From assembly GCF_032854445.1 (NCBI RefSeq), contig NC_088305.1:5645606-5709605 (forward strand): 64,000 bases of DNA, in the 5' to 3' direction. Source of the stretch: Liolophura sinensis (Eukaryota > Mollusca > Polyplacophora > Chitonida > Chitonidae). Below are positions 10,917-51,512 of the stretch, one piece after another. The notes under the pieces are model-generated. The model did no database searches. It was not told where the DNA came from and saw nothing but the letters and a program-made list of their open reading frames with translations. The translations under genes and the position numbers were made by a program. Each line of letters begins with the position of its first letter. Positions within the stretch are counted from its first letter, which is position 1.

Positions 10917-11032
10917 CTGATGAACGCTGGTATGCGAATATTCATTGACGAACGCTGGTATACAAAAGTCCATTGACGAACGCTGGTATGCGAATATCCA
11001 TTGACGAACGCTGGTATACGAATGACGAATTC
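10917..11032. repeat. 28-bp tandem array made from the end of repeat E
   Basis: GAACGCTGGTATGCGAATA units start at 10922, 10950, 10978 and 11006, a constant 28-bp period. The unit matches the TTGACGGCTGGTATACGAAT end block of E and directly continues the E copy at 10629-10916. Confidence 0.85.
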
Positions 11033-11419
11033 AAGCTAAGAGGAGTGTTGAAGAGAGGAGGCCAGAAAAACGCCTATGAAATCGAACTAATGTTCTGTTG
11101 GCGCGTAAATTTAGCCTGTATCCAAATCGTGTACCATCATGATTCAAGGATCTAGGTTGTCGTTAACTGAAAATACACATCCAACGTGGCAAGTTAATTC
11201 AACAGGATGTATACCCTGCCTCTAGTACTATCTTCAGCTGAATTATAGACAAAGTGAAGTACCAGAGAGCCACAGAATCTGGACACTCCGGCCATTTTAA
11301 TTTACACCATTTTTATACTCATTGCACGGTATATAAACTGTGATGTTTGATGAAAAAACTGTGCAGTAAAGCCGATCCAATCAAGTGGACAACTCATGAA
11401 CTAGACTACGAACGCTTGG

Positions 11420-11490
11420 CTGCTTTGTCGGATTGTATTTCTGACCTGTGACGTCACGTGTTCGAATCCAGCTGTCGCTGTTTCCGCTTC
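11420..11490 (+). mobile_element. Possible tRNA-like SINE head
   Basis: GTTCGAATCC (11459-11468) is a good Pol III B-box, preceded by CTGACCTGTGACGTCACGTG as in a tRNA T-arm context. The A-box side is unclear and no known tail follows. Confidence 0.25.
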
Positions 11491-11804
11491 TGCTTTAAAA
11501 TGCCGCTTCAGTCCTCAGATAAACCAGGCGAAAATAGGAAAATGATATGAGGGATACCACATTGAACAGAGCTATCAGCACCGTTCAAAAACATTTACGA
11601 TGAATAACACTATTTAACCTCAATTACTGAAGAGTACTCAAAAACAAAATCTTGGACAGTTTCCGTAAAATTCGAGATAATATTCTTTATGTGACGATGA
11701 GTCAGGTAGATATGTGACGTCGATTAAGGTAATTATGCTGGAATGACGTCATGCGCGTTTCAAAGTCCGACGTCATCCCTATACGTCAGCGATGGGTGAC
11801 GTCA
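11449..11804. promoter_or_regulatory. Cluster of CRE-like TGACGTCA palindromes
   Basis: Perfect TGACGTCA occurs at 11449-11456, 11744-11751 and 11797-11804. Near-matches lie at 11715 (TGACGTCG) and 11768 (CGACGTCA). CACGTG overlaps the first. CREB/ATF binding is inferred from the consensus; no gene is attached. Confidence 0.35.
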
Positions 11805-12743
11805 AGTGTTCTTGCGTGTTTTGTTTCCGTATTATCCTCCGAAACTAACAACAGCGGTTTTAATACAATGCAATTTTTTTTACAGTTTATGAAATCAAAT
11901 TCAGATTATCGACCCATTTTACTCTGCCTTTAAGACATACAGGTCTTGGCATTGAAGTAGTTTGTCAGATATATCCGGCAAAGTGAAAACACCTTGGGCA
12001 CGGGGTTAAGCGATCAATAAATCAATTATTCATAGAACTGATGAAAAAAATACTGTTACTTACATTATGTATCCAGGGTCAAACAGCCCAGAACCAAGCT
12101 TCTTGCTGTACACATCAGAATTCTCACCAGACGACCGAAGGACAAACCAGAAGGTGATCAACAGAATTAAGCTTTTATTTGCTACTCAAAGCGGATGCCA
12201 TACAGACCATTTTCTCGTGCACACTCACGTGACGTTTACAGTCTTTATCTTTACATATTCTACACAAGTATCTTACGATCATAAACTCACGAACTTTGGC
12301 ATACAGATATAAACTGTCTGACTAACGATAAGAACAAACGACTGCAATTGCGAGACAAATTTGGTACAACTATGTTTATAGTGAATTGCGGACATGGTCA
12401 TCGTGTCTCCACATCAATATTTCCCATAGCTCCTGACGCTGGAAACAATCTACAGGCACCAAAGACGATCTGCTAGCGTTCACTCAAATCCAGTTTAAGC
12501 TACATCCGAGCTGATATCACATACTGTCCCGTGAACAACACAGCTAAGGTTGTTGCGTAACTAGAGTATTGTTATACATTGCCTCAGCAATATACGCTAT
12601 ACCAAAGATCGAGCTACAATTAAAAGCTTACGCTCGCTACAAACAGTTAGGCCGAGAGTACTGTCAACATAGTCTATTTGATCACAGTTAAAAGGCGTAA
12701 ACAGTTTATAAACTTTGTGTAAGCCATTAATAGCAAGAGACTA
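11805..12743. other. Stretch without recognised features
   Basis: AT-rich; an 81-codon frame at 12067-12312 has no support. Confidence 0.45.
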
Positions 12744-12902
12744 GGGCCCGGTTGTTCAAAACTGTTTTAAGCCATAATACCAGATTTAACTTTAAGCCAA
12801 GCGTTCAATTTTGTTCTTAGCCCACTAATAATTCCATAATAATATGTTAAATATGGCGTAAATATGTTACTCTTAAACTATGACTTTGGACAACTGCATT
12901 AG
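12744..12902. mobile_element. MITE-like element, about 160 bp
   Basis: CCCGGTTGTTCAAAACTGTT at the left and TATGACTTTGGACAACTGC at the right are imperfect inverted ends; the middle is AT-rich. The NGGTTGTTCAAA end type is common in small DNA transposons. Confidence 0.45.
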
Positions 12903-13634
12903 CTGCTGAGTTTGGCTACAATTTTGAATTCAAAATATGACTTAATACCGGTATTAGCTAATACACTTGCGAACCACGGGGCCCTGAACTTTCTTCAAGA
13001 ATATCCATTTGCTGTTTTGTTTCTAGATCCGTGTGTTACTTTTTCGCCTTTAATAATAGTTCCATTGCTGTTTATTTCTTGTGATCATCGCGGCTGTGTC
13101 GTTCTAGTTATCCACTGACATATCTCCAGTCACGTTACTGAATCATTTACATTGAGTTGGTAATCAGGAAGGGTGTGTTTTGTTTTACAACATGTGTGTT
13201 ATAAACACTCTCATGTAGGCATTGTCATTAAATTTTTGAAAAAAATTATTTCATTCTACACATTTAACTGCTATTTTACATTAACATTAGAGTTAATAAC
13301 ATAGACGTATGTTCTTTAGCACAAACTACATTGAAAAACCCGCCATCAAAATTCTTGAACAACACAACATAAAACAATGTCATTCATATATCCATTTAGA
13401 AAAGTTCATGCTACACGACTGTTATTCATTGCATTCCTAAGGGAGAAAAAAAAGCATGTTAAATATGAAGTAGGTGATTGGTTGTGTGTGCGTAAATGTT
13501 TTTGTATGGTAGAAAAAACAGTAATCATTGTGTAGCCACCAAGGTAGGAAACTCGCATCATAACTTTGTGCTTGTCTGCAGTTATTTAGTTCTATATATA
13601 GCAGAATGTGTGAAATTAGTCAGTGTAGTATTAG

Positions 13635-13772
13635 TTACATGGTTACTCAGTGATAGGATAAGCAAATATATATTGTCCATAATCCTCGTATTTGGCGAGA
13701 TGTCAGCCGAGCCCATTATAACGATTATTGACACCATACATTTGCGTATCCTATCACTGAGTAACCACGTAA
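13635..13772. repeat. Inverted repeat with 43-bp arms
   Basis: Arms 13635-13677 and 13730-13772 pair through TGGTTACTCAGTGATAGGAT and its complement, with about six mismatches and a 52-bp spacer. Similar residues (SNHVTNS) therefore appear in frames on both strands. Confidence 0.8.
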
Positions 13773-15459
13773 CGAATTCACTTCGCAAAGACCCATCAGT
13801 TCAGTGCAGAAGACCGATGTATATGTAAAACGCCTCAGCGTTATGACCATCGTTTGACCCCAACAAAGGGAGATAACCTACTCAGTAGTCACATTTGACG
13901 TCGTCTGCAGGATTCGAGATTATATCTGTACCTCACGTGACCGTTGTTGTCCAATGAAAAGCGGAGTATTTTGTCTGATGCGGGATAACTGTGAGTATTT
14001 GTATGGCCTTTCCCTAAGCTGTATAATATATCATAACCAATGTGAAAGACTTGGTGTAACAGTTGTTCTCCTGCTTCAACGAAACAATACATTTAAACTA
14101 TTTACATAGTTAGCAACGGTAAATATGCATTCATTAACAAAGCCTTTGTACATCATCGAGACAGTTTCAGTTGCAGTCGCGTCTTCTCTGGAAATACACT
14201 TGTCACTGTCTTATCGTCACGAAGATAAATTTGGAATTTTCTGCGAAAGACCACCACATCCACCTGCTAGCATTCGACCTCACGGTGCCTTTCAACGACC
14301 CAAAGCGCATGCGCAACTGCCTTGTACACCGGACCATAAGTGTATCATGTAACATTCAGCTGGACAATATGCTCTTCGTTAAACATAAAAACATACACTC
14401 GAGTAAAATGTGTTCACAAGACGAGTGCGTATCACAATAACAGCTTTACAACACATGGTATTCATTTGTTACATTTATCACTGGAAGTTCTGTTATGTAA
14501 TACCAGCCACAAGGCTTTTTTTCACTGTCAACACGTCCTACCAATCGCAAGATGTCACTGAGCACAAATTTACACACGCTAATCGCTGTTATTCTAAAGA
14601 AATTTCTCTATAGCTGTTCACTCCATGTCACGTGACACTGATTGGCATTGATAATTAGGTTAATGCATTTAATGTAATGTGAAGGTAACGTTTATTTCTA
14701 TAAATTTGATTCATGCATTCAGGGGAGACGAATATGTTTAAGCTATGTGGGCACAAGTAGGAAATAGCCTATAAGCCGTATTCATATAAGGAATAGGGAA
14801 ATCCCCCATCGATATGATCTACTTGTGCACAAGCAGTATTCTCCCCGTAATGGATGAACCATTCCGTCACCGTGGCTATGGATAAACTTTACCGTTATTT
14901 TTTAACGTCTGTGCACAGTTAAGCTGTAGTTGGTTTAACTGGGTTAAATAAAATCTCTCACTGTCTTTCTTTAGAGTAAATTAGGAAAGACAACAGTTGG
15001 TTGGTTTGGAAGCGATCGTGACAATTAACAAGCAACACGAGTAGCCCTCGCAAAGTATAGTATTTGCCCACAGCAATGCATCGCCCTCGGGATCGGAATA
15101 TTGCGGCGCTATCAGATTTGTTGTGTGAGAATGATAAGTTGGCAGCGCTGTTACATAGTTTCATTCTTGCGCAGTTACCCAATATTTGCCTAGTTGCAAA
15201 CAATACTCAAGCCTTGTGGCGACCCATCAAATTATCACACGTTTTATGGAAAACAACATAGTTAGTTGATTCAGCTCTTGGAGAGCCTGCGTTGAGTGTC
15301 AGGGCATCTTATTCCACTGTACATTCTGTACAGCGCAGCATCTTCACGGTACAGACAGACATTTGCCTTTCTTTAAATACCGACTTCGTGGGTTAAAGTC
15401 TCCTCAGTAGAGTACAGGAGACATTTGCGTTTGTTGTTACTGCAGGTATATTAATGTTG
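13773..15459. other. Region 3' of the GDF8/11-like gene; no gene seen
   Basis: Overlapping plus-strand frames at 14125-14613 (67-89 codons) have no motif or splice support. The 3' UTR of the minus-strand gene should occupy the right part. Confidence 0.4.
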
Positions 15460-15879
15460 TTACGATAGCTTGGCGTCTTCCAAAATTCGTCCAACATGAC
15501 AGCCCTCCTCACAAACAGGAGCATGTTTCGTGACCATGCCTGGAATATATTCAATGACAAAGTTGGAGGCGTTTTTCCTGTAGAGCATCTGCAAAGGGCC
15601 TAACGAAGAAGGCTTGCAGCAGGCTTCGTACGAAGAGTTCACGTTCTTAAGGATGTGGGTCTGCTGGTTGATTTGTTTGTAGATCAACGGACAGTCGCCG
15701 CTGCAGAAGTAGGACACGAACTTTTTGGGAGACCACGACAAAGTGCCAGTCGAAGGATTGGAAGTCCACGAGCAAGTATCGTCGCAGCACACAGTGGAGT
15801 CTTTGTCACAGGTCTTGGAGGAGTCTCGTCTGTATCGACGTCGGTAATCCTGAATCACCCGTATAGCGAGGAACGGCTC
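15460..15879 (-). CDS. Exon 3 of the myostatin/GDF8/11-like ligand (furin site and cystine-knot growth factor domain)
   Basis: The last coding exon follows an ATTACAG acceptor in phase 0 and starts EPFLAIRV, equivalent to the family's 'PFLEVKV'. The basic site YRRRYRR (residues 356-362) should be cut by furin-type proteases, releasing a ligand of about 121 residues from D363. The ligand has ten Cys: C368, C375-C376, C380, C403, C407, C431-C432, C467 and C471. The CC-to-YFCSGDC spacing of 26 residues equals that of vertebrate myostatin, and WSPKKFVSYFCSGDC parallels 'iaPkrykanYCsGeC'. EACCKPSSLGPLQMLY is the conserved CC-P-s-pl-mLY segment. Three oddities stand out. There is an extra Cys at 380. 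The closing cysteines are CEEGC, not CxC, with three extra residues before them. A 12-residue tail follows the last Cys. Two N-linked sequons (N425, N447) lie in the ligand. The TAA ends at 15460; no clear AATAAA was found within about 250 bases. Confidence 0.9.
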   Translation of the reverse strand, partial: EPFLAIRVIQDYRRRYRRDSSKTCDKDSTVCCDDTCSWTSNPSTGTLSWSPKKFVSYFCSGDCPLIYKQINQQTHILKNVNSSYEACCKPSSLGPLQMLYRKNASNFVIEYIPGMVTKHAPVCEEGCHVGRILEDAKLS

Positions 15880-16202
15880 CTGTAATCATAAAACATCAAT
15901 TACTACAGCATGAGGTCTAAAACTAGCGCGACAATGGGGTAGTTGACAAATACGGTCTCTTTTCAAAGTTAGCATTCTCACAAATTTCTCTATAATAGCA
16001 TCTGTGTGAAAATCTGACACTCTTCACGAACAGTACGTATTCAAAGGGGTACAAATTTCGCCTTTTTTGACATACCTATACCTATTGTCACCATTAGTAC
16101 GACTATACATGCAGAAATTTTTACATATTAATCTTCTTAAAGCATTTTAAGCTCCTTTCATTTACCAGGCAAGTCATTGACGACATACTAGCCTTTAAAG
16201 CT

Positions 16203-16240
16203 GTGCGTCGAAACAGACATTCGTATACCTGCCGAAACAC
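16203..16240 (+). repeat. Dispersed repeat E, end fragment
   Basis: TGCGTCGAAACAGACATTCG then TATACCTGCCG, the E 5' end. Confidence 0.7.
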
Positions 16241-16679
16241 TCCTTAAATTCAACTGCCGAGGCAGTGAAAGAAATCTGTCCATCTTAGTTGGATATAAGT
16301 AAGACAACCTGATGACAAGAACATCATACTTTTACCAAGATTTATTTAAGAATACTCGCTTCCTACTCTCATTTCATCTTGATAAAGTATAATTTCAGCT
16401 CTGAAATTGTAAATTATCCTTGGATGGTATAACCCAAATGGTCCTGCTGTGGCAAATTGTTCAATTTGCCCTTTAGCATTTGCCACATACAGTATTAATA
16501 ATAATGATTTCAATCTACGCCTAGAGTTATTGATTCCAAAATTTTTAATGCCAAAAAAAATGCTCCATAACTTTGTTAAACTCTACAGTGAGTGAAGAAA
16601 TCATGCTGTCAATCATGAACAGAGTGGTCGGTATTTCTGGTAATATTTTTCGACATGAATGTACTAATCCGCGATTAGG

Positions 16680-16765
16680 GGTGGTCCACAAAGACATTCG
16701 TATAGGAGCCGTCAGCCAAGATGGATGTTCCAGGCCAATGATAGAAAGGCCTATTTTCAAAACCA
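16680..16765 (+). repeat. Dispersed repeat E, 5' fragment
   Basis: AGACATTCGTATAGGAGCCG, TCAGCCAAGATGGATGTTCC and AATGATAGAAAGGCCTATT. Confidence 0.65.
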
Positions 16766-17156
16766 TTCATGTTTATCAACATGGTACTTTCATCAACACT
16801 TGCAATCAAAGCACGAGTGAGATACTTGTTTTCGATGTTTGAATTGAATACGACAATTATTCTCCGATAAGTAGTTTCAAATTTCTATGCCTAGAGCATG
16901 GAGTGTTCGCTGCAACATTGATAGTTGTTGAGTGTCAGTTTCTACCTTTGCTATTTATACAATTATTTCTTACATATTCTTTTGATTATCAACTTGGAAC
17001 GGCGTTTTATTTCCGAGCGACATACATACATGACGCTTAGATTTTGAAGCTGTCCCTATTTGGATTTGTAGGAAGTAATTATAACTATGCATTTGCTGCT
17101 ACAGAAACTGCAAAAAAAAAGTAATTCAGTCTATGGTTTGCACAATCCATGCTTAC

Positions 17157-17536
17157 ATATCCAACATCAGCTCCTTCCCCTGGCGGATGACAACAAGGTT
17201 GTTGTTGTTGTGGTCCAGCGCTTCGATCTCCAGACCGTAATTACTGAGCGGGTCGTGGGCCCATCGGTCGATGATGTTGACCAGGTCGAAATGGGTGCCA
17301 ACCCCCTGCCCTTTCCAGCAGAATCTTCTTGGAACGTGCCAGGCTCCGCATGGGTGGCATGCCCAGGTGGGGCGGTGGCCCTAGTTTGTAAACCCTCAGA
17401 TACGTCACCGTGTTCTGCAGAGTCTTTGATGGACGTAGGTACACCCACAGTTTCCCCTTCTTTATGATGTTCGGGCCCGGGTCGACATTGAAGAAACAGG
17501 CCTTAGAACTGTTGATGTAAGTCAGATAGTCCGGCA
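17157..17536 (-). CDS. Exon 2 of the myostatin/GDF8/11-like ligand (propeptide), with two compensating single-base shifts
   Basis: The exon follows a TTGCAG acceptor and ends before GTAAGC. Its 380 bases complete codon 218 and end in phase 0, fitting exons 1 and 3. Residues about 228-262 contain KACFFNVDPG and KLWVYLRPSKTLQNTV, matching the conserved 'K.cfF.....lWvYLrp..tp..v' of myostatin-type propeptides. The homologous reading then moves by one base at a five-G run (plus-strand C run 17302-17306). It continues as HFDLVNIIDRW, NYGLEIEALD and a run of four Asn, corresponding to the family's '.iDv..vl..Wl..P.sNlGieIkAlDe'. At a four-G run (17177-17180) it returns to the original frame for GEGADVGY, which leads into exon 3. 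Left uncorrected, the original frame hits a stop at 17241-17243. Removing one G from the first run and adding one to the second restores the homologous frame throughout, so either base errors or a real paired mutation explain it. Confidence 0.85.
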
Positions 17537-19600: not shown

Positions 19601-20569
19601 CGAAATTCCGTCCTACGAAAAAAGGACGTAATTATGCAAACAGAAGCAGTCAACAGTTTTCAGTGATATTAACTGGAGATATGTTCTAGGCGACTGACTG
19701 AGATACACAGCTTTTGGCCGAATTATGTTCGGGGAAAATTTCCCTATTGTTTCAGTTTGTGTCGAAAAATGTTCCCACCGAGAAGAGTGAAATGATGACG
19801 TCTTCGCCCAAATGACGTCACGTTCCTCCTGTACTTTGGGTTGAACATGTGTTCCGACTGGTTTGCCTATTAACCCACTGGCATGGCATCTCAAGGCGTT
19901 TATCTTCATGGACAGTTTAACCTGCACCAGGCCACACATAATTCAATTTCCTTACTCCGCATGTCAGCGTTAGGCTAATCAAGATGGCACATGTAAGCGA
20001 TACACGAGAAGAATAAGACCACTGGATGTGCCACGCGTTTCTCAGCTGGTGAGTGGGTTGGTTAAGCCAAAGCCCGTGTGTTTAACCTCTTGTATAGCGC
20101 CGTGTTACCCCTCCCACCCTCCCCCTCCCTCCATCAGGCCGTGGATAAACCCGAGGGTGCGTCTATTTCCTAACAACGCCTGAGAGTAACTTGTTCAAAT
20201 CCACCCCTACTTTATCATAATGAAGACTGACATGAAATGAGCTGATGGAATTTTGGTGAGGCTTGCATTGTGCCGAGAATTTCACACAGCACCCATCCTT
20301 ATTACTTTGCCATATCCATAACCATGCTGACAGCTTAGAAAAACAATATTGACGTTTTTCAGAGGCAGAAAAATATACAATGCAAAAATAGTGTTACGTG
20401 ATCTCTTCGTTTTGAAGCCTCTTTATAAATGAAAGTATTTTTTTTTTGAGTGATGTATAATTTGTGTATGTTGATGTACCAGAGTAAAGCATATAACATC
20501 AGGGGAATTAACACGGACTAAGTGATGAGCCTGTGTCACGTTCAGTGTGATGATACTCTGCATTTTGAA
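19601..20569. other. Intronic stretch, no repeat assigned
   Basis: Contains two further TGACGTC motifs near 19796 and 19813 and a short C/T-rich patch near 20106-20135; nothing else recognised. Confidence 0.4.
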
Positions 20570-20704
20570 TAATTCTAGACCGGTGTCAATTCTAGACCGG
20601 TGTCAGTTTAAGACCAGTGTCAATTCTAGACCGGTGTCAATTCTAGACCGGTGTCAGTTTAAGACCAGTGTCAATTCTAGACCAGTGCCAATTCTAGACC
20701 GGTA
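20570..20704. repeat. 17-bp tandem array made from an internal motif of repeat D
   Basis: AATTCTAGACCGGTGTC and the variant AGTTTAAGACCAGTGTC repeat about eight times. The preceding GCATTTTGAATAATTCTAGA is D sequence, whose own version reads AATTCTAGACCAGTGACG. Confidence 0.9.
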
Positions 20705-20800
20705 AAAGAATAGAGTATAAAGAGTGAACCCAGAGTAGAGTAAATAGTGTGATAAATGGTAATTGGTCACACTTAACGGTGAAATACAGCCTCATGTAAT
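20705..20800 (+). repeat. Dispersed repeat D, degraded
   Basis: AGTGAACCCAGAGTAGAGTA, GGTCACACTTAACGGTGAAA and ACAGCCTCATGTAATTTA. Confidence 0.6.
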
Positions 20801-21084
20801 TTATATGTAGGAGTTTAAGCAAAAAAAAACTGCGCATAAACTTTGCTAAAGCATCGTTGGATAATAACCTTGGACCATAAAGGCGTCACTGTTATAATGC
20901 GCATGCATTGTGGGGAGGAGTGACAGCTCGATTTTGGAATACATTGTAAACAGATTTTACAGACGCTATTTCAGCCGCCCTTTGATTCCAACAACGCACT
21001 ATAGTAACGTTATGATGTACGACCTACGAATACATCATCGTATATAGATACATTTGTATCAAACCTGGAAATTATCCACGGGTT

Positions 21085-23040: not shown

Positions 23041-23244
23041 TTTACATTCCCTGCCCCTCACCCAACCCCCCGAACACGGTTCCAGCGACATTGGACACAA
23101 TTTTGAAGCAGACCGCCTGAGATAATGTAAGGACTCTCCTCTATATTTATTCAGAACAGAATTGTATTTACTTCACTATTTGAGAAACTGAGTAAAGGCG
23201 TTTGCTTGAATACCCATGGCACAGGGTATGTACTCAAATGCACG

Positions 23245-23341
23245 ACGTTTCATACAAAAACAAGCAGTCGACAGTTTTCAAAGATAATGGAAAGACGCAA
23301 GCAATGTCCTAGTCGACTGAAATAAATTAGTATTCAAAAGG
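23245..23341 (+). repeat. Dispersed repeat E, middle part
   Basis: AAGCAGTCGACAGTTTTCAA and GGAAAGACGCAAGCAATGTC lead into the 24-bp array. Confidence 0.65.
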
Positions 23342-23412
23342 GTGTACCATGCTAGTTCATATATCGTGTACCATGCCAGTTCATAAATCGTGTACCATGC
23401 TAGTTCATAAGT
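23342..23412. repeat. 24-bp tandem array made from repeat E, three copies
   Basis: GTGTACCATGCTAGTTCATA units at 23342, 23366 and 23390. GTGTACCATGCTAG is the single-copy block at the same position in other E copies (for example 55139). Confidence 0.85.
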
Positions 23413-23614
23413 TGCTATTAATCAAGATATATATCTTACTTGCGCTATGTTAGCACCTGCTGCAACTTGCATTCTAATTCAACACGACGCGTATATACAT
23501 GTACATCCTCTTTCCTGGGTTAAGCGGCATTTGGTGCAGTTATGAAGCAGAGTGCCAGAGATTATGGACACTTTGTTCATATTTACTTACAAGACTAGTG
23601 TAACAAATGAAACT

Positions 23615-23715
23615 AAATATGATTAAAGACGTACAGCATAGAGGGTAAAACCAAAGCAATGACGACAGTGTGGTAGCTGGCTTGTCAATTCACCTCAGTT
23701 GGGGTTTTATTAAAG
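23615..23715 (+). repeat. Dispersed repeat D
   Basis: ATTAAAGACGTACAGCATAG, AAAGCAATGACGACAGTGTG and TTGTCAATTCACCTCAG; an internal block is deleted. Confidence 0.75.
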
Positions 23716-25479: not shown

Positions 25480-25484
25480 GGGGG
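25449..25484. repeat. (GT)n then poly-G microsatellite
   Basis: About seven GT units followed by a run of about 22 G, abutting the 82-bp array. Confidence 0.9.
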
Positions 25485-25990
25485 TAGTAAAATCAGAGCA
25501 GTGACGACAGTACCCATAATATATCACTAAATAAAACGCGTATATACATGTAACATACAACAAAGGTAGTCAAATCAGAGGAGTGACGACAGTACCCATA
25601 ATATATCACTAAATGAAACGTGCATATACATGTAACATACAACAAAGGTAGTCAAATCAGAGCAGTGACGACAGTACCCATAATATGTCACTAAATGAAA
25701 CGCGTATATACATGTAACATACAACAAAGGTAGTAAAATCAGAGCAGTGACGACAGTACCCATAATATGTTACTAAATGAAACGTGTATATACATGTAAC
25801 ATACAACAAAGGTAGTAAAATCAGAGCAGTGACGACAGTACCCATAATATGTCACTAAATGAAACGCGTATATACATGTAGCATACAACAAAGGTAGTCA
25901 AATCAGAACAGTGACGACAGTACCCATAATATATCACTAAATGAAACGCGTATATACATGTAACACACAACCAAGGTAGTCATCAAACTA
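25484..25990. repeat. 82-bp tandem array, six copies, carrying the D core
   Basis: GTAGT starts units at 25484, 25566, 25648, 25730, 25812 and 25894, with the next start at 25976: an exact 82-bp period. Each unit begins with the D core motif (CAGAGCAGTGACGACAGT) followed by about 55 bp not found in D. Confidence 0.95.
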
Positions 25991-30107: not shown

Positions 30108-30290
30108 CATATTTATTTATTTACGTATTTGATTTGTGTTTACGTCGTACTCAAGAATATTTTCACATTATGGTGTTAAGAAACCGGGCAGAACACAGAG
30201 AAAACCCATGACCAATCGCACGTTGCTGGAAGATCTTCCCACGCCAGGAAGCCAGCATAAACTAAACTTTGAACTCACAAGTGGTTAGTG
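30108..30290 (-). mobile_element. SINE family A, partial
   Basis: TTTATTTATTTACG tail complement, TACGTCGTACTCAAGAATAT, ACCCATGACCAATCGCACGT and AAGCCAGCATAAACT. Confidence 0.75.
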
Positions 30291-30349
30291 GCTACTTCCG
30301 CTTAACCCGGGGCTAGGGGACTAATGTTAGATCGCGACATTGGATATAT

Positions 30350-30650
30350 GAACGGTTGCAATCAAAGCACAACTGAGATACATATATTATTATTAACACT
30401 TTATATGGTAGCAAGGTTCACGGTTTGAATACTGATTTTATCGATTCGCCTAGAAGAATCTTTGCGCCCTTCCAACATCATTGAAAGCTCTCTTTGCATG
30501 ATTCCATCCTATTTTCGTACTTTATATCCTGTCTTAGTTCTTTGGTAGTTTGTGTTAAACGTCGTTCTGGGAATTGACTATGCGATTATCGACCTGGAAC
30601 GTCCATATTGTTTGACGGATGGTATCCGAATATCTATGTCGATGCATAAA
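30350..30650 (-). repeat. Dispersed repeat E
   Basis: GAACGGTTGCAATCAAAGCA, GCGCCCTTCCAACATCATTG, GCGATTATCGACCTGGAACG and GACGGATGGTATCCGAATAT. Confidence 0.8.
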
Positions 30651-30699
30651 TTGTCAGATTTTCTTCGGTAGGGTTTATTCCGTCCGTTCATGTTTATGC

Positions 30700-31005: not shown

Positions 31006-31263
31006 ACGAATTTAATGCTTTCTTTGGCGGCATTTGGATTTCTGGCATGTGCATGGTTATGTTTTTGCATATGATCTGATTATAATTTAATGTTGACAAC
31101 TTTGTAACGTTTGTTCTAACAATGGTTTAATAAAGACGTTGGAACCAACATCAAAGCATAACGTATGAACCAAGCAGTTTGTTATCCATAACTAATTAGT
31201 GGACTTGTGGACTTAAGAATGTAATACTGACAGGTTTAGATGACAGAGTATTATTGCACTTAC

Positions 31264-31915
31264 GCCTGGTGCCAAGAGCAAACATCTTCTCCGTCCTGGC
31301 TGGATCCTCGGGGTTGTCATAGTAGTGGTGTCCACGCTCCCACTGGTCCTGCATGTAGGGCATGTCACTCTGCAAGTTGTACTTGTCAATGATTTTCTGC
31401 AGGTGAGGAATCTTTGGAAGACTCGTGCCAGACACATTTGGAAGATGGGTCAACTGAAGCTTCTTTAATATTTTAGCCTTGATGGTTTCAATGGCAAAAG
31501 CTTTTGCGTTTTCGAACTCCTTGCAAGCTTTGCATTTTGCATTTTCACCGAGTTCCTTGTGAGTGGCAGCTGACACGTTGCCTGTATCGTTGGAATCGGC
31601 GCTTCCCTCGAAGGGTTCGGCGTATTTTCGCGTGGAATCAGTGCCCTCCACATCGTCAACTGCCTCATAGTCAGGGGACCCGCTGGTTGCAGAAGAGTAC
31701 AAATCTTCTTCTGACGTACTATCAGGATTAACACTATATTCACTGGAATGTTTGGCTATTTCTTTGAGCTTGGGAGAAATTTGCTTCTGGGAAAACACTG
31801 TAGGAGACTCTCTGGAAGACTTCACCTGTGCGTGTCGAATTTTGTGGCTATGTACGAGGAAAATAATACCTGCGAAGCCAAAGAGAAAGGCTAACACCGG
31901 TTGTTTCATAGCCAT
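31264..31915 (-). CDS. Exon 1 of a myostatin/GDF8/11-like TGF-beta ligand (signal peptide and N-terminal propeptide)
   Basis: First coding exon of a secreted TGF-beta superfamily precursor. The ATG at 31915 has A at -3 and G at +4; a second in-frame ATG at 31909 could also serve. Residues 1-23 are a signal peptide: a short basic start, then a hydrophobic stretch ending in LVHS. Residues 24-125 are Ser/Asp/Glu-rich and poorly conserved. Residues 128-131 read CKAC, followed by an amphipathic helix with IETIKAKILKKLQL and LPNVS. This matches the CxxC, 'IK.qIL.KLrl...PNiS' signature of myostatin and GDF11 propeptides. N-glycosylation sequons lie at N109, N113 and N160. The exon ends with one base of codon 218 before a GTAAGT donor (phase 1), which fits exon 2. 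The precursor is about 483 codons against about 375 in vertebrate myostatin; most of the excess is in the N-terminal acidic region. Activin/inhibin-beta is the main alternative family. Confidence 0.9.
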
Positions 31916-33862: not shown

Positions 33863-34113
33863 ACGATCGGTCGGTTAAAGCGCTAGCGCAGCGTAATGAC
33901 CCAGGAGTCTCTCACCAATGCCGTCGCTGTGAGTTCAAGTGCAGCTCTTGCTAGCTTCCTCTCCGCCCTTACGTGAGAAGGTCCCTAGCAACCTGCGGAT
34001 GGTCATAGGTTTCCCCCGTGCTCTGCCCGGTTTCCACCCACTATAATGCTGGCCGCCGTCGTATAAGTGAAATATTCTTGAGTACGGCGTAAAACAGCAA
34101 TCAAATAAATAAA
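33863..34113 (+). mobile_element. SINE family A, inserted in a degenerate tandem array
   Basis: GGTTAAAGCGCTAGCGCAGC, GAGTTCAAGTGCAGCTCTTG, AACCTGCGGATGGTCATAGG and AAAACAGCAATCAAATAAAT. GATGGACACGA at both ends (about 33853 and 34115) may be target duplication, but it also matches the array sequence. Confidence 0.85.
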
Positions 34114-34412
34114 TTGATGGACACGAAGAAAACATCGTAATGTTGACGGTTAAATCACCGTAATGTTCACTGAAAAACACCGTAATGTTGACGGCAAAAA
34201 CACAGTAATGTTCAATGATAAAACGCTGTTCTGTTGACGGATACGGAGAAAACACCGTAATGCTGACGGTCAAAACACCGTAATGTTGAATCACAAAAGG
34301 CGGTTCTGTTGACGGATACGGATTAAACACTGTAATGTTGAATGACAAAACATCGTTCTCTTTACGGCCATAATACCGTAATGTTGACGGCCATTACACC
34401 GGACAAATTACC
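34114..34412. repeat. Degenerate tandem array, right part
   Basis: AACACCGTAATG(C/T)TGACGG recurs about ten times. A longer unit with GTTGACGGATACGGA repeats at about 34237 and 34307. Confidence 0.75.
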
Positions 34413-37289: not shown

Positions 37290-37570
37290 TATTGAATCTA
37301 ACATTTTAGTAAATTCTACACCAGTGACGTCTAGTACTAAAACTGAAATGAATATCACTGCATTTTTGTATCTAATTCATGTTAAGCCTTGGTACCAGTG
37401 GTTGTGCACATGGTCAGAAATTAATCATTGACATCAAAGATTTAGAGTATAACCCTATCTGAAGTGAAATGAGATGTATCCAGATCTCAGGAGTTACACG
37501 TAACTGTTGCTGATAATCACAGTGTTGCACCTGCTGTGGTTTTATTCTCTGCATGTGCTGTTGTCTTAAC
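37290..37570 (-). repeat. Dispersed repeat D, diverged
   Basis: TACACCAGTGACGTCTAGTA, CATGTTAAGCCTTGGTACCA and TGCTGTGGTTTTATTCTCTG. Confidence 0.65.
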
Positions 37571-37589
37571 CCGGGGGTTAGGAGCGGTA

Positions 37590-37920
37590 TATTCATCGTG
37601 TTGAATTAGATCGCCGTGTTGCATATATGAAGAGTTGCAATCAATGCGCAACTCAGATACATGTTTTGTTCTCGACAACTTCTATAAGAGCATGGTACAC
37701 GCTTTGAAAACTGATTTCCGAGAACATACGCTGCGTCTTTCCAGCATCAAGGAAAACTGTCGATTTCTTCCCTTTGCAGGATTCCGTCCTTTTTTTTGTA
37801 CTTTATGCACTTTCTTCGTTCTTTGGCAGTTTATGTTAAACGACGTTGGTGGGAATTGGCATTGTGATTATTGACCGGGAAACGTCCATTTTGGCTGAGG
37901 GCTGGTATACGAATGCCGAT
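37590..37920 (-). repeat. Dispersed repeat E, near full length
   Basis: ATATGAAGAGTTGCAATCAA, GCTGCGTCTTTCCAGCATCA, TTCTTTGGCAGTTTATGTTA, TGTGATTATTGACCGGGAAA and GGGCTGGTATACGAATGCC. Confidence 0.8.
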
Positions 37921-38007: not shown

Positions 38008-38205
38008 CTTGCGATTATCGCATTGGAACCCCCATCATGGTTAACGAGTGGTACATGTGATTATCGACTTGGATACCTATCGTGGTTAACAAATGGTATA
38101 TGCGATCGTCGACTCAGAACCCTAACGTGGCTAACGAGTTGTATATGCGATTGTCGACTCGGAACCCTAAAGTCGTTAACAAGTGGTATATGCGATTGTT
38201 GAACA
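38008..38205. repeat. 45-bp tandem array made from the end of repeat E
   Basis: GCGATTATCG-type unit starts fall at 38011, 38057, 38102, 38147 and 38192. The unit matches, end to end, the 45-bp E stretch from GCGATTATTGACCTGGAACG to GGCTGGTATA. Confidence 0.85.
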
Positions 38206-38329
38206 GAACTAACTAATGTTTCTGTGGCACGGCTCACATTGATGTTCTAGGTGCGTAAATTTAACCTGTATATCTGGCAACATTCTACAAGAGGAATAGT
38301 TTCAAGTTTGATACCGGTGTTGTAAATTA

Positions 38330-38560
38330 TTCTAAATTGGATAGAAATATACCAAGGACTAGGGGCTGTATACTCATCGAGTTGAATTATATCACTATGT
38401 TGGGTATATGAACAGTTGCAATCACAGTGACACACAGATAGATGGTGTGATTATCGAGACCTCTTATACTGTCAAGGCTCACGATTCGAACACTAACTCA
38501 ATTCTTTGCGTCCTTTCGTCATCATTGGAAACTGTTGATTACTTCTTATCCCATTGTGTT
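38330..38560 (-). repeat. Dispersed repeat E, partial
   Basis: AGGGGCTGTATACTCATCGA, ATATGAACAGTTGCAATCAC and TTGCGTCCTTTCGTCATCAT. Confidence 0.7.
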
Positions 38561-44681: not shown

Positions 44682-44749
44682 TGATGCTGACCGCCGTCGT
44701 ATAAGTGAAGTATTCTTGAGAACGACGTAAAACACCAATCAAATAAATC
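44682..44749 (+). mobile_element. SINE family A, 3' end
   Basis: GATGCTGACCGCCGTCGTAT, AAGTATTCTTGAGAACGACG and AAAACACCAATCAAATAAAT. Confidence 0.8.
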
Positions 44750-45594
44750 AGCCATTAACGTCACATTGCCAGTCCTCGGGTTCTACCGTAGAACAGACCG
44801 TCAGCTGTTAAAATCTACACCTTGCGTTAATCATCGCCAGAATAGCATTTGCTCCAAAAAATCTGCAACACAAATCACCACATGCATAATGAATGAATGA
44901 ATTAATTAATCATCCAAAATTTCCATTTATCATGCTCTACCTGTTGGTCAAGAGTCGCGTTCGCGTAATGTCGCGTTCCCAGAGTTCGACTGTTGAATCC
45001 ATTTTTAGGGACGAGACTCCATAGTCGAATAAAAACAGAACAGCAGATAAATGATTTAGATGAATTGCACAGATCGGTACGGCAAATCTCACAGTGTTAA
45101 CGAGATATAAGGAGTTTCTGATGAAGTCCCAAAAATTGCATTGCTGAATTTATCCGACCCCAAAATCGATAGGTAAAAATGAAGACATATTTGGCCATAT
45201 TGTGATGCCTGTGTTTCACACGATGGTAAAACACAAAGCAAATAAAGACAAAATCAGATCAAGCACTTAAAAAGTCACTTCACACTTCATATTAGATGTT
45301 TATTCAATTCATAATGAATGAATTAGGTACGGATAGTTGATCATTTACCCTAGTGTTTAGTTAATTCAATGCTTAAGTTGTATGATTCACTCAACTAATG
45401 AAATAAGCATTTTACCTTAGTATTTTTATGAGTATCTAAATAACTAAATTTTAATCTTTATTCATAACCAATGAATTTAATACAGATATTTCCCAAGCTG
45501 CTTTAGGGTTTCATTACATTGTATTTCTGCATAACCCGGGATTCTGCTGGCGGACTAAGCATCCAAGAGGCCTGGTCCCTTTGCATTGTTTTAA
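44750..45594. other. Stretch without recognised features
   Basis: AT-rich; its right end (GGGATTCTGCTGGCGGACTA) is the D-neighbour sequence also seen at 30060 and 40855. Confidence 0.4.
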
Positions 45595-45895
45595 TGTGAT
45601 TGTATGTTTAACGTGAAGACAAAACAGCATTTTGAGTAATTCTAGACCAGTGACGCCCAATAAATTACAATTAACATCTACGCATTTTTTAAATTTAATT
45701 CTGCTTAATGGTGCTAGGGGGTGTGTAAATTGCTGTTATTTAAGCATTTACATGAACAGTTAGAATAAAACCCTAACTGAGGTAAATTCACAGGAGGTAG
45801 TGTTTCACCCGTTACGTGTGACAATTTGCGAGCTGACACACTGTCGTCGCTGCTCAGATTTTTCTCTCTATGCTGTACGTCTTAGTAATATTCAT
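45595..45895 (-). repeat. Dispersed repeat D, reference near-full copy
   Basis: TGTGATTGTATGTTTAACGT, ATTCTAGACCAGTGACGCCC, TTCTGCTTAATGGTGCTAGG, AACAGTTAGAATAAAACCCT, GTTACGTGTGACAATTTGCG and TCTCTATGCTGTACGTCTTA give the whole D order over about 300 bp. Confidence 0.85.
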
Positions 45896-46171
45896 TGAGG
45901 TCGATTCTTAAGTTTGAACATTCGCTCATAACCAATGGATTTCGTACGGCCATTTGTCATCTTCATGAGTATTTTATTCTTGGATATTCTTATATTTCAA
46001 TTTTTAATATAAATTGCCAATGAATTATGTATTGATATTCAACACTTCCCCTTGGTACATCATTCAGAATAATGCTTAAATTTTAATATTCAGTGATAAC
46101 TAGTGCATTGAGTTTGACAGTTTACCTTACTGGTATATTAAGGGCAGAGCTGGTGTCTTAGCATTCACTCA

Positions 46172-46417
46172 TACACTAAAAAAAATCAGTCTGTTGTCTG
46201 AGTGATGCTTGAATGTACCAGTATTCCGTTATCCCGTAGATTATTCTATGAAATATAACACATGTGTTCCATTAATTTAACATTAAAGTTTTATCAGACT
46301 AACAAGATGTTATGCTAAATATAACACAATATTGTGTGAAAATAACAGAATACATTCTAGCATCACTCAGACAACAGACTTTCTGTTAAAATTAACAGAT
46401 TTATTTTTTGAGTGTAG
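46172..46417. mobile_element. MITE with about 60-bp inverted ends
   Basis: ACACTAAAAAAAATCAGTCT at the left and ATTTATTTTTTGAGTGTAG at the right form the outer ends; TCTGTTGTCTGAGTGATGCT is inverted at about 46360-46380. No coding content; the end type resembles Tc1/mariner-derived MITEs. Confidence 0.65.
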
Positions 46418-46439
46418 TTCAGTGCTCTATTCAGGGCCA

Positions 46440-46680
46440 CAGAATAAATCTAAACAACTAACATCACTGCACTTTTTTACTTAATTCTTTTTAAGCCATG
46501 GTGCTAGGAGGAGTGTGATGTGCCACTATTTTAGCCTTAAATGGACAGTTAGAATAAAACCCTAACTGAGGTAAATTGACAAGAGGACGTATTTCACGTA
46601 TAACACGTCTGACCATTTGCCAACTGTCACACTGTTTTCATTACTCTGGTTGTACTCGCTATGCTGTAGTTTATTACATT
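46440..46680 (-). repeat. Dispersed repeat D
   Basis: CTTTTTAAGCCATGGTGCTA, GGACAGTTAGAATAAAACCC, GAGGACGTATTTCACGTATA and TCGCTATGCTGTAG. Confidence 0.8.
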
Positions 46681-48403
46681 ATACTTATACTTTATTACAT
46701 TAAATGTTATTATTCAATCGTAGCCCCTGAATTTCCTTGATTTGATTTTAAGCAGCTTTTTGCGGAAACTATACCGATTTTCCTCCCAGATTTTCCCCTT
46801 TTTTCCCTGTATTCCAGAAAGATATGAAAACGAATCTACCTTTAGGTTTGCACATTGACATACGTGATCTTGTTGAATTGTGGGTTTAAATGCAAACCTT
46901 TTGTATACCAGATATATTTTACTGGTGAAAAAATGGTTTACGGGCAAAATTCTGCCAGGCCTTTACCACAGACTTATACCGTAAGGACACAGAAACGTTT
47001 TTTCTTTGGTGCCAATAAAATTATCTAAATCACTTGTTTTTACCCTTTTTGAAACCTTTTTTATGAAGTGAAAGTATCTTACGATGAGTCACTCCACGAT
47101 TGCGTAACCGTGGTGTTACATCATCACGTGATACTTAGTCAGACTAACCCGTCTTGTAACTGATGAATAAAACCGGTCAATATTGCTCCGTTGAGAATGG
47201 TGTAAAAACGCATTTAACACACAAACGGAAAAGCAATAAATTTCCTCTCTTAAAATCTGACAACATGACACATTAAAGCGATTTCAATGTGGTTTTGTTT
47301 AAGCCAAGCGCTGTAAATCCATTACTATATGCCACTAATGCTTTAGGACGATACGTGTGAGCAGTTATAGAGTTTGTCCATCAAAGTGTACGAACGATGA
47401 ACGACGCATTAAACAATTTACTTTAGCTGCAACAAGTTTCCTGCACGCGGAAAACTTCTGTTTCATGCTTCATTTTGTTTTATGTTATTTTTTTTTTAAC
47501 ATTTGCTGTTTATCTGATTGCTTGAAAACTGCGTAGAAGCGAAATAAATACTGGTAATCTATAGTCGAGTTAACGAACCCATGTACGTGAAGCGCCATAC
47601 TGTCTGTGGATATAACCACTGTCCAATCCACACGCAAGGAGAAAGGTGCGAGGGACGGCCTTGCAGCTTGTTCCCTGATTGATGAAATGAGGCCTGCTTA
47701 TCTTATTGCTAAATTTACATTACCATTAAAGCCAATTTTATTGGTAATTACCAGAAGAGAATTTTAACCCAATTGCGTTGCAACAAATACCAAGTGCACA
47801 GCGCACATCAGCTGACTTATTATATTTTCTATCTAATTGTTGCAATATTTCATTTGTGTTAAGCGTATAAAATGGATTTAATGAAATATGGGATTTTTGA
47901 GAATACGTATTGAGTTATCGAATATAATTGAATTGAGTTCACCATTTTTCTGCTGTTGGCTCCAGGAATGTAAGGGACACATGTATATCCCTGAACTGTT
48001 TTTGTGCTCCAAATGTAAAGCCACGGAGCTATACATCTTACTGTTTCACGTGGGTCAGAAAACTCTTCATAATTAAACTATAGTAAAAATTCGTACAAAA
48101 ATGTAGCTCATGACGTATTATATTAACTGGCCCTTTTGGGAAATTTGCGTCAAGAAACTGAACGTTTCAAAAATACTTCCTTTGTGACTTTGTGACATTT
48201 AATGAACTATTAAGAAAGAGATGGCATGCTCGTGATGATTTTACAAAATGTTTACCGGTAGTTAAAATTATAAGCAGATTAGTTTTTTTTAATCCGTGAC
48301 GAACTATAGTTTATGAAACATTGTCTTTGGTGCTTTTATCTAAAAATTAGAGACACCATATTTGGACATCTACTTTTTATTTATGTGATTGTTGTTTAAA
48401 TAT
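46681..48403. other. Stretch without recognised features
   Basis: About 1.7 kb of AT-rich DNA. A 62-codon plus-strand frame at 47888-48076 has a possible acceptor (TTGGCTCCAG) but no other support. Confidence 0.4.
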
Positions 48404-51400
48404 GATTAAAGACGTACAGCATAGAGGGTAAACCAGAGCAGCGACGACATCGTGACAAACGTACAGCATAAAGAGTAAAACCAGAGCAGCGAAGACAGTG
48501 TGATAGACGTACAGCACAGAGAGTAAAACCAGAGAAGCGACGATAGCGTGACAAACGTACAGCATAGAGAGTAAACCCAGAACAGCGACGACAGTGTGAC
48601 AGACGTACAACATAGAGAGTAAAACCAGAGCAGCGACGACAGTGTGATAGACGTACAGCATAGAGAGTAAACCAGAGCAGCGACGACAGCGTGACAGACG
48701 TACAGCATAGAGAGTAAACCAGAGCAGCGAAGACAGTGTGATAGACGTACAGCATAGAGGGTAAAACCACAGCAGCGACGACATTGTGATACACGTACAG
48801 CATAGAGAGTAAACCAGAGCAGAGACGACAGTGTGATAGACGTAAAACATAGAGAGTAAAACCAGAGCAAGGAAGACAGTGTGACAGACGTACAGCATAG
48901 AGAGTAAACCCAGAGCAGCGACGACAGTGTGATACACGTACAGCATAGAGGGTAAAACCACAGCAGCGACGACATTGTGATACACGTACAGCATAGAGAG
49001 TAAACCAGAGCAGAGACGACAGTGTGATAGACGTAAAACATAGAGAGTAAAACCAGAGCAAGGAAGACAGTGTGACAGACGTACAGCATAGAGAGTAAAA
49101 CCAGAGCAGCGACGACAGTGTGATACACGCACAGCATACACAATAACCCAGAGCAGAGACGACAGTGTGATAGACGTACAACATAGAGAGTAAAACCAGA
49201 GGAACGAAGACAGTGTGACAGACGTACAGCATAGAGGGTAAAACCACAGCAGCGACGACAGTGTGATAGACGTACAGCATAGAGAGTAAAACCAGAGCAA
49301 CGAAGACAGTGTGACAGACGTACAGTATAGAGGGTAAAACCACAGCAGCGAAGACAGCGTGACAGACCTACCGCATAGAGATTAAAACCAGAGCAACGAA
49401 GACAGTGTGACAGACGTACAGCATAGAGAGTAAAACCAGAGCAACGAAGGCAGTGTGACAGACGTACAGCATAGAGGGTAAAACCACAGCAGCGACGACA
49501 GTGTGATATCCGTACAGCATAGAGAGTAAACCAGAGCAGAGACAAAAGCGTGATAGATGTAAAACATAGAGAATAAAACCAGAGCAACGAAGACAGTGTG
49601 ACAGACGTACGGCATAGAGGGTAAAACCAGAGCAGCGACGACAGTGTGACAGACGTACAGTATAGAGATTAAAACCAGAGCAGCGACGACAGTGCGACAG
49701 ACGTACAGTATAGAGAGTAAAACCAGAGCAGCGACGACAGTGTGACAGACGTACAACATAGAGAGTAAAACCAGAGCAGTAAAGACCGTGTGATAGACGT
49801 ACAGCATAGAGAGTAAACCCAGAGCAGCGACGACAGTGTGACAGACGTACAACATAGAGAGTAAAACCAGAGCAGCGACGACAGTGTGATAGACGTACGG
49901 CATAGAGAGTAAACCAGAGCAGCGACGACAGCGTGACAAACGTACAGCATAGAGAGTAAACCAGAGCAGCGAAGAAAGTGTGATAGACGTACGGCATAGA
50001 GAGTAAACCCAGAGCAGCGAAGATAGTGTGACAGACGCACAGCATAGAGGGTAAAACCACAGCAGCGACGACATTGTGATACACGTACAGCATAGAGAGT
50101 AAACCAGAGCAGAGACGACAGTGTGATAGACGTAAAACATAGAGAGTAAAACCAGAGCAAGGAAGACAGTGTGACAGACGTACAGCATAGAGAGTAAAAC
50201 CAGAGCAGCGACGACAGTGTGATACACGTACAGCATAGACAGTAACCCAGAGCAGCGAAGACAGTGTGATAGACGTACAACATAGAGGGTAAAACCAGAG
50301 GAACGAAGACAGTGTGACAGACGTACAGCATAGAGGGTAAAACCAGAGCAGCGACGAAAGTGTGATAGACGTACAGCATAGAGAGTAAAACCAGAGCAAC
50401 GAAGACAGTGTGACAGACGTACAGTATAGAGGGTAAAACCACAGCAGCGAAGACAGGGTGACAGACCTACAGCATAGAGGGTAAAACCAGAGCAACGAAG
50501 ACAGTGTGACAGACGTACAGCATAGAGAGTAAAACCAGAGCAACGAAGGCAGTGTGACAGACGTACAGCATAGAGGGTAAAACCACAGCAGCGACGACAG
50601 TGTGATATCCGTACAGCATAGAGAGTAAACCAGAGCAGAGACGAAAGTGTGATAGATGTAAAACATAGAGAATAAAACCAGAGCAGCGAAGACAGTGTGA
50701 TAGACGTAAAGCATAGAGGGTAAAACCACAGCAGCGACGAGATTGTGATACACGTACAGCATAGAGAGTAAACCAGAGCAGAGACGAAAGTGTGATAGAC
50801 GTAAAACATAGAGAGTAAAACCAGAGCAAGGAAGACAGTGTGACAGACGTACAGCATAGAGAGTAAAACCAGAGCAGCGACGACAGTGTGATACACGCAC
50901 AGCATAGACAGTAACCCAGAGCAGAGACGACAGTGTGTAGCGTACAACATAGAGGGTAAAACCAGAGGAACGAAGACAGTGTGACAGACGTACAGCATAG
51001 AGGGTAAAACCAGAGCAGCGACGAAAGTGTGATAGACGTACAGCATAGAGAGTAAAACCAGAGCAACGAAGACAGTGTGACAGACGTACAGTATAGAGGG
51101 TACAACCACAGCAGCGAAGACAGGGTGACAGACCTACAGCATAGAGGGTAAAACCAGAGCAACGAAGACAGTGTGACAGACGTACAGCATAGAGAGTAAA
51201 ACCAGAGCAACGAAGGCAGTGTGACAGACGTACAGCATAGAGGGTAAAACCACAGCAGCGACGACAGTGTGATATCCGTACAGCATAGAGAGTAAACCAG
51301 AGCAGAGACGAAAGTGTGATAGATGTAAAACATAGAGAATAAAACCACAGCAGCGACGACAGTGTGACAGACGTACAGTATAGAGATTAAAACCAGAGCA

Positions 51401-51512
51401 GCGACGACAGTGCGACAGACGTACAGTATAGAGAGTAAAACCAGAGCAGCGACGACAGTGTGATAGACGTACAACATAAAGAGTAAACCAGAACAGCGAC
51501 GACAGTGTGATA
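48404..51512. repeat. 3.1-kb minisatellite of about 65 units of 47-48 bp, made from the D core
   Basis: The unit runs GACGTACAGCATAGAGAGTA, then AAACCAGAGCAGCGACGACA, then GTGTGATA: 48 bp, or 47 when one A is lost. This is the start of repeat D. Units differ by a few substitutions (CAGAG/CACAG, GCAGCGAC/GCAACGAA, GTGTGATA/GTGTGACA). Blocks of several units are themselves repeated. The array starts in normal D left flank (ATGATTAAAGACGTACAG). It ends in sequence like the tail of repeat E (GATTGCAACTGTTCACACCC). Frames of 129-575 codons on the minus strand are repeats of 16 residues such as LSHCRRCSGFTLYAVR and are not credible proteins. Confidence 0.97.

Follow-up and report, generated by a model that had tools for sequence, protein, structure and literature searches.

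D- and E-derived tandem arrays in a 64-kb window of the Liolophura sinensis genome: five private minisatellites and one dispersed tandem tail

D, E and six tandem arrays

The window (the whole 64,000-nucleotide stretch of Liolophura sinensis DNA that was analysed) carries copies of two repeated sequences, D and E, together with tandem arrays built from pieces of them. The first-pass annotation used both names without defining them, and their consensus sequences, of 872 bp for E and 379 bp for D, were rebuilt from copies found in the genome. The E copy at 30288..30652 (plus strand, E 483-872) provided the genome query, positions 30327-30652, while the longest D copy of the window lies at 45518..45883 (plus strand, D 1-370, 89%). 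Tandem arrays were called by TRF and those of period 10 or more were taken as minisatellites; the groups of shorter period (3 of 20 in the window and 5 of 42 in a random genome sample) were dropped. Exactly six of the 17 minisatellites retained in the window resemble D or E more closely than their shuffled units do, the other 11 showing no D/E match when compared to 300 shuffles each. TRF recovers in this way all six arrays that had been claimed, with periods of 17, 24, 28, 45, 48 and 82 bp. The array at 34129, which begins 15 bp past a copy of the SINE A, was also considered as an offspring of that element, a candidate left unsupported by 60 of 300 shuffles. One array of the random sample (L079, 5807-6945) matches SINE A at 1/300 shuffles.

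Three of the six arrays lie in or on an element copy. The 28-bp array (10898..11024, plus strand, 4.5 copies of E 832-854) directly extends the 3' end of an E copy at 10632..10914 (plus strand, consensus positions 580-854). The 24-bp array (23342..23410, minus strand, 2.9 copies of E 617-635) has E on both sides and is a triplication within an otherwise unbroken E copy at 23250..23594 (minus strand), which it splits into E 721-617 (23250-23355) and E 635-426 (23385-23594). The earlier statement that these two arrays continue an E copy is thus borne out. The 17-bp array (20571..20703, plus strand, 7.8 copies), whose unit matches D 121-135, is entered from a D fragment at 20540..20585 (plus strand, D 89-135) and is followed by an inverted D fragment (20711-20803).

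The 45-bp array is called by TRF at 38038..38199 (plus strand, 3.6 copies) and by self-match is longer, about 38010-38209. It is separated by about 95 bp from an E copy upstream (37565..37915, plus strand, E 496-852) and by about 80 bp from an E piece downstream (38287-38357, E 188-253). Its unit corresponds to E 801-854 and spans an imperfect direct repeat of E, TGCGATTATTG / ACGAATGTCTG, whose two parts lie, by eye, about 44 bp apart, near the 45-bp period. No D/E copy adjoins the 82-bp array (25483..25982, minus strand, 6.1 copies), and no more than half of its unit, 41 of 82 bases, matches D (D 327-367). The 48-bp array is by far the largest (48410..51513, minus strand, 65 copies, 65.0 by TRF) and repeats D 320-369. 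It is closed by a D right end at 48400..48455 (minus strand, D 323-379), including a terminal TTAATTATAT-like stretch, while its other edge (51465..51556, minus strand) reads D 303-369 followed by a stretch that weakly resembles E (E 530-573, E-value 3e-4).

The match of each unit to the D/E consensus was compared with 3000 dinucleotide shuffles of that unit. None of the shuffles reached the match of the 28-, 24-, 82- or 48-bp unit, and a single one reached that of the 45-bp unit. The 17-bp unit, with 14 of 15 bases identical, is the weakest (18/3000), a weakness offset by the D copy that leads into that array. The similarity of the units to D/E, by this comparison, lies beyond chance. Accidental or low-complexity matches could be argued for the 17-bp unit alone and have a negligible probability for the set, given that five of the six units stand at 0 or 1 of 3000 shuffles and that the 17-, 24- and 28-bp arrays adjoin or sit within D/E copies. 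The units had also been described as matching a different short block each. This is not the case: there are four blocks, not six, because the 28- and 45-bp units share one (E 832-854 is nested in E 801-854) and the 48- and 82-bp units another (D 327-367 inside D 320-369).

Nature of E and D

E is predicted to be the 3' end of a reverse-transcriptase (RT) element. The consensus of its upstream part is open for 159 codons and contains YIDD, and one genome locus (L082) has a 716-amino-acid open frame with GIPMG and YTDD. These sequences were spotted by eye and we take them to be RT motifs; searches of the RT-like protein of E against Pfam and PDB sequences matched nothing. Pfam revealed no GIY-YIG domain in the 716-amino-acid frame at E values up to 5, a search that may be blind to this frame because its RT is unmatched as well. 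Sub-threshold profile matches to a Spiroplasma phage family (E 0.013) and to VraX (E 0.034) were taken as chance. E copies are truncated at the 5' side and have a fixed 3' end; neighbouring copies are found in direct and in inverted orientation. At L082, a single copy, comparison of the 460 bp upstream with the 3' UTR, minus its final ~50 bp, revealed no similarity indicative of a pLTR.

D is 379 bp long and its right end is fixed; by our own reading, 10 of 15 D loci carry an additional head-to-tail copy. A weak similarity of 39 bp between E (about 554-592) and D (about 236-274) suggests that the two may be related. The arrangement at 23200-23700 in the window had suggested that E and D are halves of one element, a reading rejected because D is mostly not followed by E and the sequence upstream of E is coding. 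No hammerhead was detected in three D loci (L029, L032 and L042) at E <= 2, nor across the window at gathering score; D was rejected as a retrozyme for want of this ribozyme in its tandem unit.

Private arrays, a dispersed tail and array frequencies

The 609-Mb genome was searched with the unit or the tandem junction of each array, allowing up to 3 mismatches and thus blind to more distant copies and to any copy in stretches outside the searchable sequence, with reversed patterns as controls. All 18 matches of the 17-, 24-, 28-, 45- and 82-bp patterns fall within the window's own arrays (5, 2, 3, 2 and 6, respectively) and their reversed controls gave none. Since these five arrays are absent elsewhere in the genome at <=3 mismatches, they grew in place. 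The independent local growth that had been proposed for all six is therefore supported for these five, which have distinct units and a single locus at that threshold; it finds no support in the 48-bp array, the junction of which occurs at many places.

The 48-bp tandem junction has 2,924 genome matches at <=3 mismatches, several per array (reversed control, 0), compared to 2,402 for the single D right end. Exact junctions, 100 of which are among the matches listed, lie by our own count at no fewer than 54 separate places on at least 11 contigs. Tandem 48-bp copies are present in 3 of 15 D loci examined (L035, L042 and L039, the last with about 1.7 copies), so that the 48-bp unit is not, as had been stated, single-copy in other copies of the element. 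D is organized as a body with a variable left end, a 48-bp array of 1 to 65 units and about 11 terminal nucleotides. The terminal stretch, more or less altered, follows the tandem part in L042, L040 and the window array; the exception is L035, where the array passes into a (TG)n tract without it. The 48-bp array is a multi-locus tandem repeat borne by D, and because its junction is common to many loci the tail probably spread with D.

The broader proposal that D/E repeatedly seeds minisatellites was examined in 15 stretches of 10 kb (150 kb) picked at random, under a fixed seed, among 12 large contigs. The draw did not extend to C12 or the small contigs, and the stretches fell on C2, C4, C6, C7, C8, C10 and C13. 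None of their 37 minisatellites matches D/E (95% upper limit 7.8%), a clear difference from 6 of 17 in the window (Fisher P = 0.0005). We ascribe this difference to the richness of the window in D/E, which makes up 15.6% of it outside the arrays, versus about 1.4% of the random sample (E 0.52%, D 0.91%, about 2.1 kb in all). When set against the D/E share of the window, the excess of matching arrays is marginal: P = 0.038 for 6/17, and P = 0.090 for the 5/16 left when the dispersed 48-bp array is removed. The 8 kb adjacent to the window contain no D/E match and have arrays at six places.

Private D/E-derived arrays number 0.54 per kb of D/E, compared to 0.22 per kb elsewhere in the window and 0.25 in the random sample. 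The per-kb excess in the window has P values of 0.08-0.09, or 0.03-0.04 if the 48-bp array is counted. The non-significant excess points in the direction of the seeding idea.

Sixty D/E-targeted loci (39.0 kb of D/E) contain three arrays other than the 48-bp one that overlap D/E by at least half (periods 78, 14 and 12 bp), fewer than the background rate predicts (P = 0.014). The 12-bp array, of 2.2 copies, is the only one of them that overlaps E. This set omits duplicate loci (L001, L003, L007, L008 and L010-L012), the random and window stretches, and two arrays (L060, L080) whose overlap with D/E is just 2% and 7%. Its loci favour well-preserved copies and are partly redundant rather than independent, L044-L050 forming one cluster on C1 and L015 overlapping L044. 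A modest propensity of D/E is compatible with these counts, whose power is low because of the small amount of D/E in the random sample and the bias of the targeted loci. The generalisation that D/E seeds repeats especially often is not supported, and in so far as these samples can stand for the genome it does not pass the enrichment check that had been proposed with it.

Origin of the arrays and known systems

The arrays are best accounted for, with a probability of about 0.78, by ordinary tandem duplication on the spot, within the remains of retroelements, together with one dispersed tandem tail of D. The window would be exceptionally crowded with decayed 3' ends of retroelements (E and the perhaps related D). 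For the 17-, 24-, 28-, 45- and 82-bp arrays, a short piece of D or E would have been tandemly duplicated after insertion and then expanded locally; short imperfect direct repeats may have been the sites of the replication slippage or unequal exchange that made the duplications. The 48-bp tail would have arisen elsewhere, spread with D copies and lengthened here to 65 units. No special seeding power of D/E would be required.

It is unlikely, in our judgement, that D/E is instead intrinsically prone to tandem duplication, mainly in its 3'-terminal 75 bp and for instance via reverse transcription or end repair. Four of the six seeds (28, 45, 48 and 82 bp) do come from the terminal 75 bp of one or the other element, a segment that holds about 29% of the D/E bases of the window; one D locus (L040) has its own array, of period 78 bp, in the same segment, and both the extra head-to-tail D copies and the D tails that are tandem at many places agree with such a tendency. 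The four terminal seeds are, however, not four separate hot spots because they form two pairs that share a block. The random arrays without any D/E match, the lone short E-overlapping array of the targeted loci and the marginal excess in the window also argue against proneness. A narrower version, which we hold to be quite unlikely, makes the terminal 75 bp of E and D a hot spot at or soon after insertion, where reverse transcription would make the first duplication; one element family would then be an ongoing source of both private minisatellites and the dispersed 48-bp satellite. If it were true, the birth of minisatellites would be tied to reverse transcription.

The comparison with bivalve elements that have tandem cores leads to another reading, in which D and E would be non-autonomous elements of Helentron type (pearl/HINE) and the arrays their variable cores. 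Two points are in line with it: the 48-bp array, flanked on one side by the D body and on the other by a short terminus, varies widely in unit number, and Helitron-type Rep genes occur in the genome (9 PF14214 matches). The upstream part of E, however, encodes an RT-like protein and not a Rep/helicase, which disfavours a Helitron origin of E; its copies have the 5' truncation and fixed 3' end described above, and the five remaining arrays are private and not common cores. This reading is accordingly very improbable. The bivalve analogy fails for E and for the private arrays and survives, loosely, in the layout of the 48-bp D tail.

Duplication in place within element debris, the reading preferred here, makes the window a clear local example of two known routes at once: minisatellites that grow in single dead copies and stay private, and a tail that spreads with its element. 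Growth in place from element pieces is an ordinary route for such repeats. The window also provides a caution, in that a match between an array unit and a given repeat needs weighing against the local share of that repeat.

Penelope-like elements are RT elements described in PMC11167929 as having copies in tandem or partial tandem. The direct and inverted E neighbours are reminiscent of them; a difference is that no hammerhead was found in the three D loci and the window searched here. Oyster pearl and Cg_HINE are, according to PMC7492417, non-autonomous Helentrons with satDNA-like central repeats. Dispersed D resembles them, for the 48-bp repeat only, by a flanked tandem array that varies in length, and differs in the size of the repeat (48 bp, versus the longer pearl repeats of about 160 bp), in the RT-like coding of E and in that the copies have just one of the six arrays in common. 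The closest parallel comes from human tandem repeats derived from transposable elements, for which Ahmed and Liang (2012, PMC3389668) give 5,747 single-locus clusters grown in place from inserted elements and 185 multi-locus clusters, with LTR12 repeats propagated by transposition. Host and elements are different, the chiton arrays coming from what are probably 3' ends of RT elements. The five private arrays, with units that match D/E beyond shuffled units and occur at one locus only (<=3 mismatches), are akin to the human single-locus class, and the 48-bp array to the multi-locus class.

Tandem arrays derived from D and E

Tandem-repeat finding in the window bore out all six arrays of the first-pass annotation, with periods of 17, 24, 28, 45, 48 and 82 bp. 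Exactly these six of the 17 window minisatellites (period 10 or more) match the dispersed families D and E beyond shuffled units (300 shuffles each); with 3000 shuffles each, 0, 0, 0, 0, 1 and 18 reach the score of the array. Alignment to the consensus places the seeds of the 28-, 45- and 24-bp units at E 832-854, E 801-854 and E 617-635, and those of the 17-, 82- and 48-bp units at D 121-135, D 327-367 and D 320-369, respectively. From these coordinates the seeds fall in four blocks, not in a different block for each array as had been claimed. Four of the six lie within the final 75 bp of E or D, a region that accounts for ~29% of the window D/E bases, in a comparison based on few cases.

The 17-, 24- and 28-bp arrays sit inside or beside D/E copies. 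A D copy directly precedes the 17-bp array, and the 28-bp array directly follows E as annotated. The 24-bp array, also reported to continue an E copy, is a triplication within one E copy. E pieces are present on either side of the 45-bp array, 80-95 bp away. The period of this array approximates the ~44-bp spacing of two imperfect direct repeats seen by eye in E. The 82-bp unit is half D, its other half having no assignment, and no D/E copy was found beside this array.

The genome was searched with unit or tandem-junction patterns allowing up to 3 mismatches (for 82 bp, a pattern inside the unit). At this limit five arrays are private to their locus: the 17-, 24-, 45-, 28- and 82-bp patterns have 5, 2, 2, 3 and 6 matches, all in the window's own arrays. 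The sixth is dispersed. The junction between adjoining 48-bp units has 2,924 genome matches, several per array, versus 2,402 for the single D right end and 0 for a reversed-pattern control; among the matches listed, 100 exact junctions occupy 54 places on 11 contigs (own count). Arrays with this junction have 5.3 copies at locus L035, 16 at L042 and about 1.7 at L039. The D terminal stretch, more or less altered, closes the array in L042, in the window and in L040 (C6:33200800-33202700), where the same D 3' end bears another tandem unit (78 bp, 3 copies) with a junction of its own; in L035 the array passes instead into a (TG)n tract. Because the junction is common to other D loci and the D terminus closes the array, the 48-bp array represents a tandem D tail rather than the local growth proposed initially.

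D/E content and frequency of arrays

D and E make up 11.9% and 7.9% of the window including arrays, and D/E outside the six arrays 15.6%. Fifteen random 10-kb stretches contain 0.91% D, 0.52% E and 2.4% of another dispersed family, SINE A. None of their 37 minisatellites attains a D/E match comparable to those of the six (95% upper limit 7.8%); the nearest two are reached by 8 and 15 of 300 shuffles, about chance for 37 tests. The difference between 6/17 and 0/37 (Fisher P = 0.0005) is ascribed to the window's D/E content. Against the 15.6% share, 6/17 gives P = 0.038, and 5/16, leaving aside the dispersed 48-bp array, P = 0.090. A modest excess of private arrays in D/E is possible, since they number 0.54 per kb of D/E versus 0.22 per kb for other arrays in the window's remaining sequence and 0.25 per kb in the random sample. 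In 60 loci targeted for D/E (115 kb, 39.0 kb of D/E), the arrays with at least half of their extent in D/E have periods of 48 bp (2 loci), 78, 14 and 12 bp; the three non-48-bp arrays are fewer than expected from background (P = 0.014) in these loci, which were chosen as the best-preserved copies and are partly redundant. Together, these results indicate that the abundance of D/E is the main reason for the D/E-derived arrays in the window. The random arrays and the share-based comparison thus do not sustain the idea that D/E repeatedly seeds minisatellites, beyond the possible modest excess.

The window appears to be a patch rich in D/E. Its D/E density is ~10 times that of the 150 kb of random genome, and the 8 kb to its right (L083) have no D/E match. 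In this flank, arrays with other units stand at six places. The first continues the window's 89-bp array (window 63021-64000 to L083:1-1462; 93% matches in the window, extending ~1.4 kb beyond its edge), which is followed by other large arrays.

The nature of D and E and other window features

Self-comparison of the window revealed several dispersed families. D and E had been named without definition and their consensus sequences were rebuilt from genome copies, using one copy of each as query against the genome that the window comes from (609 Mb, 632 contigs). The first search gave 5,396 candidates for E and 4,197 for D, the best 40 being scored for each, and alignment of the fetched copies yielded an E consensus of 872 bp in all. 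E copies have a sharp end on one side (...TTTCGACGCATAGATT) and variable cut points on the other. The upstream part of the consensus holds a stop-terminated open frame of 159 codons with a YIDD motif, whose peptide has at least 150 genome matches (150 of 6,861 candidates scored). A 716-amino-acid open frame from this abundant family (L082:460-2610) displays by eye the motifs GIPMG and YTDD, which we take to be reverse-transcriptase-like. Given the upstream frame with such motifs and the variably cut copies, E most likely represents the 3' end of a reverse-transcriptase element whose copies are 5'-truncated. The 716-amino-acid frame had no match in Pfam (E<=5) or PDB (E<=1) sequence searches. 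Searches for the clade of E found no hammerhead, and no repeated 3' UTR in the 460 bp upstream in L082, a single copy whose 3' UTR is incomplete. E neighbours occur in direct and inverted orientation, which recalls Penelope-like elements (PMC11167929).

The D consensus spans 379 bp, its right end fixed (...GTACGTCTTTAATTATATT) and its left end variable; by our own reading, 10 of 15 fetched loci have an extra head-to-tail D copy, mostly partial. The region C1:56.12-56.49 Mb is a local segmental cluster: eight of the matches listed for an E-bearing segment lie there (92-100% identity to the query), and across the five compared loci a diverged D follows E at a distance of about 640-700 bp.

SINE A, with 24 matches in the window, has a tRNA-like head, a conserved core and an end in AAATAAATAAATAAAA (copy at 8732-8977); it is presumably a MetaSINE-type element of the kind known from molluscs. 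A 23/45/75-bp array (34129-34356) begins 15 bp after the SINE A copy 33871-34114, and its unit has no match to SINE A beyond shuffles. On the minus strand a TGF-beta domain is encoded at 15460-15858 (Pfam PF00019, E 8e-10). An ORF at 31196-31915, 15 kb away on that strand, matches a TGF-beta propeptide below threshold (E 0.056), and the two are possibly exons of one gene.

Array origin and known parallels

The private arrays probably arose by tandem duplication, through slippage or unequal exchange, followed by local expansion, and the 48-bp tail probably spread with D copies. The likeness to bivalve elements with tandem cores, suggested initially, holds at most for the 48-bp tail and not for the other arrays, the oyster case being one of central repeats shared among Helentrons (PMC7492417). 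In human, 7,276 minisatellites, or 23%, are reported as derived from transposable elements, with 5,747 single-locus and 185 multi-locus clusters (Ahmed and Liang, PMC3389668). The mechanism proposed here matches these single-locus and multi-locus classes of human elements.
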